Under the pieces are notes generated by a model. That model did no database searches. It was not told the DNA's origin and was given only the letters and a program-made list of their open reading frames with translations. DNA of 64,000 bases from NCBI RefSeq assembly GCF_001483755.1, contig NZ_LQBK01000006.1, positions 62,001 through 126,000 of the forward strand. The letters are read 5' to 3'. The translations under genes and the position numbers were made by a program. Shown here piece after piece: positions 56,163 to 62,258 of the stretch (positions are counted from its first letter, which is position 1; each line of letters begins with the position of its first letter). This DNA comes from Kocuria rosea subsp. polaris. GTDB taxonomy: Bacteria; Actinomycetota; Actinomycetes; Actinomycetales; Micrococcaceae.

Positions 56163-57482
56163 TCAGCGGCCGCTGGTGCTGGGCATCGTCTCCCTGGCCT
56201 CCACGCGCGAGGCGGTGATCGGATAGCGATCGGCGAGCACGGCCCGCGTGGCGTCCATCAGCAGCTCAAGACCTTCGTCGAGGTCTTTTCGGGAGATGTT
56301 CAGGGCGGGCATGGCCTTGAGGACCTCGGACCGCGCGCCCGAGGTCTCGACGAGCAGATGCCGTTCGAAGGCGGCGCCAGCGATCCGCTCCGCCAGCTCC
56401 GGGTCGGGGAAGTGGACTCCTGCGAGCAGGCCCCGTCCGCGACAGGTCGCTCCCTCCACCAGCGCCGCGATCCGCGCGAGGCCGTCCCCGAGCTGCCTCC
56501 CGCGCTCGACGACGGATCGCTGGAAGACGCCGCCGTCGGCCCAGTACTTCTCGAGAGCGGCGGTGCCGGTGACGAAGGCGGCGTTGTTGCCGCGGAACGT
56601 CCCGTTGTGCTGGCCGGGCTGCCAGATGTCCAGCTCGGGGCGCAGGAGGACCAGCGCCATGGGCAGCCCGTAGCCCGAGATGGACTTCGACAGGCACACG
56701 ATGTCCGGGGTGATCCCGGCCTCCTCGAAGCTGAAGAAGGTGCCGGTGCGCCCACAGCCCGCCTGGACGTCGTCGACGATCAGCAGGACCTCGTGCTCCC
56801 GGCAGAGAGCCTCGAGTTCGCGCAACCACCCGGCACGGGCGGCGTTCAGGCCGCCTTCGCCCTGAACAGTCTCGACGATGACGGCGGCGGGACGTTCCAC
56901 CCCGGAGCTGGAGTCCCCCCACGTCCTGGCCAGCCAGGACAGCCCCCACGACGGGTCGTCGAGATAGCCGTCGTACGGTGCGGTGGTGGCGAACGGCAGC
57001 GGCACTCCTGCGCCGTTGCGCTTCATGGCGTTGCCGGTGACCGACAGGGACCCCAGGGTCATGCCGTGGAAGGCATTCGTGAAGGCGGTGACGCCGGTGC
57101 GCCCGGTGTTCAGCCGTGCCAGTTTGAGGGCGGCCTCCACGCTGTTGGTCCCTGTGGGTCCGGTGAACTGGACCTTGTGGTCCAGGCCGCGCGGCCGGAG
57201 GACATGGTGCTCGAAGGCGGTGAGGAAGCGGCGCTTGGCCGTGGTGTAGGTGTCGAGGGAGTGGACGACGCCGTCGGCGGCCAGGTACTCGAGCAGCGCA
57301 CGTTTCAGGTCCGGATCGTTGTGCCCGTAGTTCAGCGCCCCGGCGCCGGAGAAGAAGTCGAGGTAGACCTCGCCGTCCTCGGCGTGCAGCCGGGAGCCGC
57401 GAGCGGTCTCGAAGACCACCGGCCAGCTGCGGCAGTAGCTGCGGACGTCGGACTCGAGGGCCTCGAAGATCGTGGTGGACAT
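56163..57482 (-). CDS. ectB: L-2,4-diaminobutyrate--2-oxoglutarate aminotransferase (EctB type)
   Basis: A 439-residue class III aminotransferase. The N terminus IFEALESDVRSYCRSWPVVF is diagnostic of EctB-like enzymes; the PLP lysine is K266 in VCLSKSISGYGLPMA, with IVDDVQAGCGRTG (D237) and HGMTLGSLSVTGN. It converts L-aspartate-4-semialdehyde plus glutamate to L-2,4-diaminobutyrate. In ectoine producers it stands between ectA and ectC, but neither is here. Instead it is divergent from a Pls-like homopolymer synthetase, so its product is probably that enzyme's monomer. The ATG follows GGGAG by eight bases. The possible promoter lies far upstream (57731-57759). Confidence 0.92.
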   Translation of the reverse strand: MSTTIFEALESDVRSYCRSWPVVFETARGSRLHAEDGEVYLDFFSGAGALNYGHNDPDLKRALLEYLAADGVVHSLDTYTTAKRRFLTAFEHHVLRPRGLDHKVQFTGPTGTNSVEAALKLARLNTGRTGVTAFTNAFHGMTLGSLSVTGNAMKRNGAGVPLPFATTAPYDGYLDDPSWGLSWLARTWGDSSSGVERPAAVIVETVQGEGGLNAARAGWLRELEALCREHEVLLIVDDVQAGCGRTGTFFSFEEAGITPDIVCLSKSISGYGLPMALVLLRPELDIWQPGQHNGTFRGNNAAFVTGTAALEKYWADGGVFQRSVVERGRQLGDGLARIAALVEGATCRGRGLLAGVHFPDPELAERIAGAAFERHLLVETSGARSEVLKAMPALNISRKDLDEGLELLMDATRAVLADRYPITASRVEARETMPSTSGR

Positions 57483-57730
57483 GGTGACGACTCCCGGTGG
57501 TGAGGAATGGGCTAGGTGGTCATCGGGCCGGCCGGTTCTCCCGCTGAGCGCTCGTCGGTCGCGTAGGGCGGGGCGCCCATCCGGGTGGACGCCGGGACGG
57601 ACGGACGTGTGCAACAGGAATGGGATGCGACGACCGGCCGTGCTCGGGCGGCGCCGTGTTCCGTGAGAGCCTGGAATCACATCCAGACGGAATTACCGGC
57701 CGGTCAGCGCACTCGTTCGACATGGCTCAG

Positions 57731-61000: not shown

Positions 61001-62258
61001 CATGCGGCTGACGGGAGACAGTTCGCTGATCGTCCACTACGTGCGCCTGCTCGGCTACAAGCAGCCCGATCTGGTGCAGACGGGCTCGAACTTCGGACTG
61101 GCCACAAAACAGGACAATCCGTACCTGGTCACCACGGGCAGCGGGACGATGATCGCCGACGGACTGGCGATCATGAACGCGGACTTCTCCGGCAGCTCGT
61201 TCATGGTCTCGCCCGTGACCATCGGAGCCCGTAGCTTCCTGGGCAACAACATCTACTATCCGTCCACCGCTGCGACCGGCGACAACTGCCTCTACGCCAC
61301 CAAGGTCATGGTCCCCGTGGACGGTCCGGCCCGCGAAGGGGTCGGACTGCTGGGCTCACCGGCCTTCGAGATCCCCCGCACGGTCCGCAGGGACGTCGAC
61401 TTCAGGGCGCAGGGGACCGGACCCGAGCTGCACGCGCTGCTGCGAGCCAAGAACCGGCACAATGCGGTGACTATCCTGTTCTTCCTGCTGCGGGGTTGGA
61501 TCTATGCTGCGGCAGGACTGCTGCTCGCCTCCTACGCCGTCGCCCTGCACAGCATCTTCGACGTTTTCGCGGTCGCCGGGGCATTCCTGGGGATGTTGCT
61601 CTTCAGCGTCGCCTACTTCGTGCTGGTGGAACGGGCCTCGCTCGGCTTCCGCCGGCTCCGGCCGATCTTCTGCTCGATCTACCAGGAACCATTCTGGCGC
61701 ACGGAGCGGTTCTGGAAGCTCAGCGCGAGGGCTTACCTGGAGGTGTTCAACGGCACGCCGTTCAAACCGCTCATCTGGCGTCTGCTGGGCGTGCGGATGG
61801 GCCGGCGCGTGCTGGACGACGGTTGCTACATTCCGGAACGGACGCTCGTCAGCATCGGCGATGACTGCACACTGAATGTTCTGTCGATCGTGCAATGCCA
61901 TTCCATGGAGGACGGGGCGTTCAAGGTCGAGGGAACGACGGTCGGTGCGCGGTGCACGCTCGGAGCCAACTCCTTCGTCCACTACGGCGCCACGGTCGGG
62001 GACGGCGCGGTGGTGGAAGTCGACACGTTCGTCATGAAGGGCACGGAGATCCCCTCCTTCTCGTCGTTCGGGGGCAATCCTGCCCGCGAATTCACCACCG
62101 CCCGCCCTCCTGAGCTCACCACGTCCTCCGGCCGACACGCCGCTCCCCGGCGGACGGGACTGCCTCGGCTTCGCCTGGTCGGGCCGCGGAGACGGGGCCG
62201 GCACGGAACGCCGTACCGTCGGCACGAGCGGGCCCGGACATCCGGCGGTTCGCGGTGA
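58023..62258 (+). CDS. Pls/PosA-family NRPS: probable cationic poly-amino-acid synthetase
   Basis: A 1411-residue membrane-bound non-ribosomal peptide synthetase. Order: adenylation domain (about 45-540; A3 YTSGSTGRPKG at 201-211, pocket aspartate D247, A5 NVYGPTEAT, A10 lysine K534); carrier domain (about 555-635) with phosphopantetheine serine S593 in LGANSML; then six membrane segments (about 662-685, 697-722, 889-920, 929-962, 1148-1175, 1178-1206) separating three soluble domains with hexapeptide-like turns. There is no condensation or thioesterase domain. This is the layout of epsilon-poly-L-lysine synthetase, whose tandem C-terminal domains join monomers into isopeptide chains. The product is inferred, from the adjacent ectB, to be poly-diaminobutyrate. 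ATG 58023 follows GGGGAG by four bases. The C terminus (1374-1411) is Arg-rich. Confidence 0.9.
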   Translation: MSSNVDSRPQRRDQAMSTLLPQNDGPVLTSFMGDGSVLGGCEARLEQLFEAVCDRFGNAGRDSCLAVDADETRLSYSELDAQANRLARHLLELGAGPGDRIALLFDHAVPAYTAMLAVLKIHAAYVPLDPGFPPDRIAYIIEDADVSRVLTLAGLEAVVPDVSALLVCLDREQEQIDRRDSARVQIGRSTVGQDDLAYIIYTSGSTGRPKGVAIEHASICNFVRVAADVYGIRPQHRVYQGMTIAFDFSVEEIWVPWMAGATLVPKPRGAALLGPELADFLAEQRVTAMCCVPTLLSTIEDDLPDLSFLLVSGEACPRDLIARWHRPGRRFLNVYGPTEATVTATMAVAHPDRPVTLGEPLPTYSAVILDPESPRVLPRGELGEIGLAGIGLAKGYVNRDDLTAKAFIPDFIGIPENPSGRIYRTGDLGRFTEDGDIEYHGRIDTQVKVRGYRIELSEIESVLLRVPGIAQAVVNTYEPEPGFVELVGYYTVRHDGADLQDQEIRGQLRERLPGYMVPAYLERLDRIPTLPSDKADRKSLPAPRGHRTTGVDDEYVAPSSGTEEVLAEALSSVLRLEKVSAAANFFTDLGANSMLMAQFAGRLRKDARVPVPAMRDLYTAPTISALAKTLEAVPVQAPAESTSARSPRPEPLGAAQHILCGTLQALVFVLTTFVASLVLLEGYLFASSGQGLADVLWRAFVFGTLSFVGWSLFPIAAKWLLVGRWTVQEFPVWSLAYFRFWLVKNIIRATPMRMFIGTPVYPLYLRALGAKVGRRTAIFSRFVPVCTDLLTIYDDAVVRKDALISCYRAHDGFIQTGTVRLGRDALVGEGSVLDIHTALGDGAQLGHASSLHASQTVPSGQRWHGSPAQPTDTDFRTVAPADCGLRRRVVYSTAAVLYRLVLTPGIGLGVLALLIPFYLGLEHLDHGSPWFYVDLLALTLLLLLVGLTVSVGALAVVPRVLNLCLTPGRAYPLYSWRYAVQRAIDRMTNVQFFMRLTGDSSLIVHYVRLLGYKQPDLVQTGSNFGLATKQDNPYLVTTGSGTMIADGLAIMNADFSGSSFMVSPVTIGARSFLGNNIYYPSTAATGDNCLYATKVMVPVDGPAREGVGLLGSPAFEIPRTVRRDVDFRAQGTGPELHALLRAKNRHNAVTILFFLLRGWIYAAAGLLLASYAVALHSIFDVFAVAGAFLGMLLFSVAYFVLVERASLGFRRLRPIFCSIYQEPFWRTERFWKLSARAYLEVFNGTPFKPLIWRLLGVRMGRRVLDDGCYIPERTLVSIGDDCTLNVLSIVQCHSMEDGAFKVEGTTVGARCTLGANSFVHYGATVGDGAVVEVDTFVMKGTEIPSFSSFGGNPAREFTTARPPELTTSSGRHAAPRRTGLPRLRLVGPRRRGRHGTPYRRHERARTSGGSR

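Follow-up and report, generated by a model that had tools for sequence, protein, structure and literature searches.

The 64,000-nt stretch of Kocuria rosea subsp. polaris DNA analysed here (hereafter, the window; it lies on contig NZ_LQBK01000006.1, C6 below, of a 3.83-Mb assembly) carries two divergent genes that form a candidate locus for synthesis of poly-2,4-diaminobutyrate (poly-Dab): ectB, encoding an aminotransferase, on the minus strand, and a gene for a large synthetase on the plus strand. The ectB open reading frame (ORF) runs from an ATG at 57482 to a stop at 56163 (56163..57482; 439 amino acids, aa), and the synthetase ORF runs from an ATG at 58023, preceded by a GGGGAG stretch, to a stop at 62258 (58023..62258; 1411 aa). 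The ORF positions and direct inspection of the sequence place the two start codons 540 bp apart, and a scan of the intervening region (57483..58022) for sigma-70-type promoters found none. An earlier reading of the window from its letters alone (the sequence-only reading) had described an EctB-type gene and a 1411-residue synthetase facing away from each other across 540 bp; coordinates, ORFs and family assignments were all confirmed.

The synthetase belongs to the Pls/PosA family of single-module, nonribosomal-peptide-synthetase-like homopolymer synthetases, and is predicted to make poly-L-Dab. A profile hidden Markov model search, which had been proposed as a check, returned a match to TIGR02353 ('Pls/PosA family') of 685 bits (cut-off, 423.1) that spans the model from end to end (profile positions 1-695 of 695). 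Pfam matches comprise AMP-binding, AMP-binding_C, PP-binding and hexapeptide repeats, and the Pfam scan detected neither a condensation nor a thioesterase domain. The adenylation (A) domain, delimited by Pfam and by the alignment of its substrate code, covers residues about 66-540 (58218..59642, plus strand), followed by a carrier (PP-binding) domain with a DLGANS motif (residues 565-629; 59715..59909, plus strand) and by the Pls/PosA terminal domain (residues 659-1354; 59997..62084, plus strand). Hydropathy analysis revealed six hydrophobic stretches, approximately at residues 652-687, 695-723, 892-925, 926-967, 1147-1170 and 1171-1210, the last two contiguous, most of which fall within the terminal domain. 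The arrangement expected from the letters alone, namely A and carrier domains and six membrane segments with no condensation or thioesterase domain, is thus borne out by the Pfam scan and the hydropathy profile. As regards the three tandem soluble C-terminal domains that this reading also proposed, the analysis yielded the full-length TIGR02353 match, which covers the terminal region as one unit. The gene is a single open frame, in which the code residues, the A-domain motifs and the carrier serine are all retained.

The ten-residue code of the A domain, derived by alignment, is DFECLSVVTK (D247, F248, E251, C290, L310, S312, V334, V342, T343 and K534). In the account of the family given in PMC10522769, Asp1 and Glu3, both conserved across Pls/PosA enzymes, bind the two amines, and the residue at position 2 sets the chain length of the substrate, with Phe in 2,3-diaminopropionate (Dap) and Dab synthetases, Met in ornithine synthetases and Ala in lysine synthetases. 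The window synthetase possesses the Asp1/Glu3 pair of the family as well as the Phe2 of the Dap/Dab group. The same columns in the A domain structure of epsilon-poly-L-lysine synthase (7wew), read by eye off a printed alignment, give DAESIGTVVK. With Phe2 in its pocket, the window enzyme groups with the Dap and Dab enzymes, so that either ornithine or lysine appears unlikely as the monomer; lysine was rejected as a candidate on the ground that the pocket is not of the DAESIGTVVK type.

The product of the second gene was assigned as an EctB-type L-2,4-diaminobutyrate--2-oxoglutarate aminotransferase by its matches to TIGR02407 (ectoine_ectB; 612.9 bits, cut-off 552.2), NF006733 (630.7 bits, cut-off 438) and PF00202. 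A search of the entire genome with the TIGR02407 profile yielded this gene as the sole place above the cut-off, the next best scoring 194.6 bits, and EctB was found in only 3 of the 27 genomes of the genus. The ectC model had no match in this genome or in its 26 genus mates, and as a positive control it matched 21 of 80 family genomes; ectA likewise had no match in the genome, a search in which 7 of 14 control genomes gave weak, below-cut-off matches. The absence of ectA and ectC, which the sequence-only reading had held to speak against ectoine, therefore extends to the whole genome, and the ectoine route was ruled out. Among other potential consumers of Dab, for which a genome-wide check had also been suggested, a Dab decarboxylase was rejected because PF00282 has no match in the genome (the model matches in 8 of 14 control genomes). 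The genome contains a single DapF locus (C6:178870-179727), 59 kb away on the same contig, with both half-domains in one frame. With no second DapF-like (PddB-type) racemase gene found in the genome, a D-Dab monomer was rejected; the monomer should remain in the L form, making L-Dab the likely building block.

To relate the pocket code to the genetic neighbourhood, we combined 51 loci drawn by similarity to the window synthetase, the synthetases of the genus (present in 23 of 27 genomes; 35 matches, 32 used) and 47 matches from the phylum, found in 39 of 396 genomes with two candidates scored per genome. A neighbouring gene was called a Dab aminotransferase when its score against EctB or Dat queries exceeded 350 bits. 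By this measure, 35 of the 43 loci with the code DFECLSVV[T/S]K include a Dab aminotransferase, 13 of the EctB type and 22 of the Dat type, a fraction that becomes 33/38 among the loci for which at least 3 kb could be examined on both sides. None of the 81 loci with other codes includes one (DAESIGTVVK, 0/44; DAESIGTVIK, 0/15; DIWQSTADDK, 0/13; DFEYLGTVTK, 0/6; singletons, 0/3, including two that closely resemble the Dab code). The aminotransferase gene lies upstream on the same strand in 26 of the 35 loci and downstream in 4, is fused to the synthetase in 3, and is divergent in 2, namely the window and L041, a locus from an uncultured Kocuria. The fusions, all from Pseudonocardia (L025, L029 and L033), place synthetase and Dab aminotransferase in one frame of 2008-2356 codons from stop to stop, and a Pfam scan of L033 recovered both parts. 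Aspartokinase catalyses the first step toward aspartate semialdehyde, and its gene adjoins 23 of 44 DFECLSVV[T/S]K rows (family confirmed for two), in every case together with the aminotransferase gene, and none of the 81 rows with other codes. Genes resembling phosphopantetheinyl transferases occur near synthetases of several codes (3/40, 6/44, 3/15 and 3/13 rows) and do not discriminate among them. These neighbourhoods point to a strong tie between the DFECLSVV[T/S]K code and Dab-forming enzymes. The locus would have been notable in a Micrococcaceae genome, according to the sequence-only reading; this did not hold, given that the same locus type is present in Arthrobacter, Sinomonas, Paeniglutamicibacter, Citricoccus and Kocuria.

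A less expected result is that the supply enzyme appears to have been switched repeatedly between EctB and Dat beside one type of synthetase. In a tree of 56 aminotransferases, which included 17 EctBs of family genomes with ectC (the ectoine EctBs thus coming from one family), all 23 Dat-type proteins group together, and the 13 polymer-linked EctBs require three changes relative to the 17 from ectC genomes. The Arthrobacter polymer EctBs nest among the ectoine EctBs; the polymer EctBs found in the window, in Citricoccus and in three further actinobacteria fall outside. Mapping of the EctB label onto a tree of 64 synthetases, built by a quick method with SH-aLRT support only, calls for 7 changes, at least 5 of them forced by supported branches, some being losses to a state in which no aminotransferase was seen. 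The pocket remained constant through these repeated changes of supply enzyme, which we regard as good sequence evidence that what counts is the product common to both enzymes, Dab. A literature search by title and abstract opening, with subscription papers mostly outside its coverage, found no paper dealing with Pls-type synthetases accompanied by an EctB-type enzyme or an HGSNAT protein.

Taken together, the window pair is very probably a minimal poly-L-Dab locus. EctB, as its family implies, would transaminate aspartate semialdehyde with glutamate as the amino donor, yielding L-Dab; the A domain would adenylate Dab and load it onto its own carrier domain; and the membrane-embedded terminal domain would link the monomers through their side-chain amines into a cationic isopeptide polymer, which would leave the cell, by analogy with the characterised Pls, PldA, PddA and PosA. 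This is the route from aspartate semialdehyde and glutamate through Dab to poly-Dab that the letters had suggested, now supported by the two protein families, the pocket code, the neighbour link across 43 loci and the lack of an ectoine route. Secretion and an antimicrobial role of the polymer may be expected from the same characterised relatives.

The pair belongs to an already described class. The legend of Fig. 1 in PMC8117764 presents dat, a Dab transaminase gene, beside the poly-Dab synthetase gene pldA, a system that shares with the window the Pls architecture and the presence of a Dab transaminase gene in the synthetase context. The window pair differs in its divergent layout and in lacking a neighbouring aspartokinase gene, and perhaps also in the EctB type of its transaminase. 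Similarly, the PddA-D system of Streptoalloteichus hindustanus, which produces gamma-poly-D-Dab, combines a Pls-type synthetase with a Dab transaminase (PddC) and an aspartokinase (PddD), as described in PMC8225329, whereas the window genome, with its one DapF locus, shows no sign of a PddB-like racemase and the window pair has no adjacent aspartokinase. Epsilon-poly-L-lysine synthase (Pls) agrees with the window enzyme in domain order and in its TIGR02353 terminal domain but has a different pocket (DAESIGTVVK versus DFECLSVVTK), and no M1 peptidase gene lies beside the window synthetase. PosA, which makes delta-poly-L-ornithine, shares the family and the Asp1/Glu3 pocket, but its code is DMEHNGTVSK (PMC10522769). 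With the ectoine cluster ectABC the locus shares only EctB, ectA and ectC having no match in the genome. Within the dat-pldA and PddA-D class, the window pair is characterised by its EctB-type supply, its divergent, kinase-free layout and the presence of two further synthetases in the genome.

The nearest relative of the window synthetase among the 51 similarity-drawn loci is that of L041, and the same locus is also present in another genome of the genus, G021. The L041 synthetase is 78% identical to the window protein over residues 1-677 and 61% over residues 678-1408. DNA identity between the window and L041 is mostly 94-98% in the outer flanks and in ectB, whereas in the synthetase and its upstream region (window 57501-62300 versus L041 about 5470-10370) it falls to 59-89%; within the gene for an HGSNAT-family membrane protein on the far side of ectB (see below), identity swings between 78% and 94%. 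This pattern suggests allele replacement through recombination.

Several observations weigh against assignment of the window pair to poly-Dab synthesis. The sampling is uneven, with 51 loci drawn by similarity and two candidates per genome in the phylum search, and the surveyed loci are not independent, Arthrobacter and Pseudonocardia being over-represented. Eight of the 43 DFECLSVV[T/S]K loci have no aminotransferase in the stretch examined, nor do the near-variant-code loci L035 and L036, and the 0/81 count depends on the 350-bit threshold, below which five weaker matches (145-183 bits) occur in four DAESIGTVVK loci. Moreover, the window pair is divergent rather than an operon and, unlike about half of its relatives, has no adjacent aspartokinase, although such a gene is not known to be required. 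Finally, as reported in PMC10522769, alignment hardly separates poly-Dap (PDAP) from poly-Dab (PDAB) synthetases. This last point bears on the possibility that the synthetase polymerises Dap and that the adjacent EctB serves something else: the two groups are close and have Phe2 in common according to PMC10522769, and in Streptomyces albulus the PDAP synthetase gene stands apart from the Dap genes (PMC4668381). We consider a Dap polymer decidedly unlikely nevertheless, given the Dab aminotransferases in 35 of 43 same-code loci, the aspartokinase genes in 23 of 44 rows and the one-frame fusions; in addition, PMC4668381 derives Dap of S. albulus from serine and ornithine, a route other than that of EctB.

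About as unlikely is a product other than a free long polymer, be it a few Dab residues linked to a different molecule or an acylated form, although an HGSNAT-family membrane protein is encoded next to ectB and the oligo-beta-lysine of streptothricin provides a precedent for attached forms (PMC9606270). No other scaffold-building enzyme was found among the nearest neighbours scanned, and a Corynebacterium enzyme of the same architecture yielded a free polymer of 26-35 residues (PMC8117764); according to the same paper, expression in Streptomyces from a Streptomyces pls promoter proved workable for Corynebacterium pls. A silent or decaying locus, in which the synthetase is under replacement or loss and no polymer is made, would fit the drop in identity of the synthetase region to L041, the break of the L041 reading frame in two, which also counts against the poly-Dab reading, L041 being the closest relative, and the rarity of EctB in the genus; the window copy, however, is one 1411-codon open frame with all the motifs listed above intact, and we find decay very unlikely. 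That EctB is a leftover or a part of an ectoine pathway, placed beside the synthetase by accident, has in its favour the position of the window EctB within one supported group with ectoine EctBs, but this idea is largely refuted already by the lack of ectC matches across the genus and of an ectA match, and by the 13 synthetases of the Dab code that EctB-type genes adjoin, leaving it extremely unlikely. Poly-Dab synthesis accordingly remains the preferred explanation for the pair.

The genome-wide TIGR02353 search identified three synthetases above the cut-off, 29-34% identical to each other; the same number occurs in two of the 26 other genus genomes, G013 and G021. The second synthetase (C6:35054-37126; L064 5006-9256) has the Lys-type code DAESIGTVIK and is 29% identical to the window enzyme. 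The third (C11:150503-152500; L065 5428-9537) has the code DFEYLGTVTK, which it shares with the others among 6 genus loci, none with an aminotransferase nearby; its substrate is possibly Dap. At L064, the DAESIGTVIK synthetase gene is directly followed by a gene for an HGSNAT-family membrane protein, a possible start of which overlaps the synthetase end, and an amino-acid permease gene lies upstream on the opposite strand. An HGSNAT_cat-family protein accompanies all 15 DAESIGTVIK loci, all from Kocuria, and none of the 44 DAESIGTVVK loci, and an M1-family peptidase gene accompanies 39/44 DAESIGTVVK and 0/15 DAESIGTVIK loci. All five DAESIGTVVK synthetases of the genus (L067, L068, L070, L072 and L074) have the M1 gene, which ties the split to the type of synthetase rather than to the genus alone; the association of HGSNAT with DAESIGTVIK, confined to one genus, may reflect one ancestral event. 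In Streptomyces, the M1 peptidase PldII has been postulated to protect the producer (PMC8117764). A split form was also encountered, in which the terminal domain and a carrier are encoded by one gene and A domain, carrier and thioesterase by the next (L124 7628-13748, in which the domains were checked, and 12 other loci); its code, DIWQSTADDK, is devoid of Glu3, and these loci probably represent a different substrate or system.

The window has its own HGSNAT_cat-family gene, for a membrane acyltransferase-like protein (54873..56102, plus strand; PF07786, E 9.3e-10), a candidate accessory gene that is convergent with ectB and ends 60 bp from its end. Its product is 49% identical to the protein beside the Lys-code synthetase of the same genome, and the family also occurs near the Dab-code synthetases of L031, L032, L041 and L057. 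A functional link to the Dab pair is weak and no more than a lead, considering that HGSNAT genes lie near only 5 of 39 DFECLSVVTK loci, that the genome has 12 PF07786 places, four of them on contig C6, and that the window gene does not form an operon with ectB. The acyltransferase role rests on Pfam, because a PDB sequence search with the L064 protein returned nothing at E up to 1; the HGSNAT proteins also show a below-cut-off match to Acyl_transf_3 in Pfam and no NCBIfam match. One could imagine the polymer loci as modular cassettes, in which a fixed synthetase is combined with exchanged supply and protection enzymes: EctB, whose familiar role is in ectoine synthesis, and Dat would have replaced each other repeatedly, and in one Kocuria synthetase lineage an HGSNAT acyltransferase would replace the M1 peptidase of the PldII type, N-acetylating free amines at the membrane for self-protection or tailoring, with the window copy acting likewise on poly-Dab. 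We regard this broader scheme as doubtful.

Other features were recorded in passing. Just downstream of the synthetase, window positions 62442-62912 encode a protein of 156 residues that has a signal-like N terminus, a Lys/Asp-rich tail and no Pfam match, and ARAGORN called a tRNA at 31062-31153 with a two-base anticodon, 'gc', to which no type was assigned. In the genus genome G004, an EctB 77% identical to that of the window is encoded at L086 9073-10461, with no synthetase within the 19 kb examined and no ectC match in that genome; G004 has a synthetase elsewhere (L077), with the odd code DFEPQSAVSK.

If the assignment is correct, the window pair would offer a further source of cationic polymers that belong to a rare, often antimicrobial class. 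The mutual exclusion of M1 peptidase and HGSNAT genes beside Lys-code synthetases suggests a step in self-protection or tailoring that the literature search, within the coverage given above, did not turn up. That EctB and Dat take each other's place next to a single type of synthetase is natural evidence for the substrate, obtained without biochemistry, and pocket code and supply gene together would constitute a sequence rule for sorting the unassigned Pls/PosA enzymes by product.

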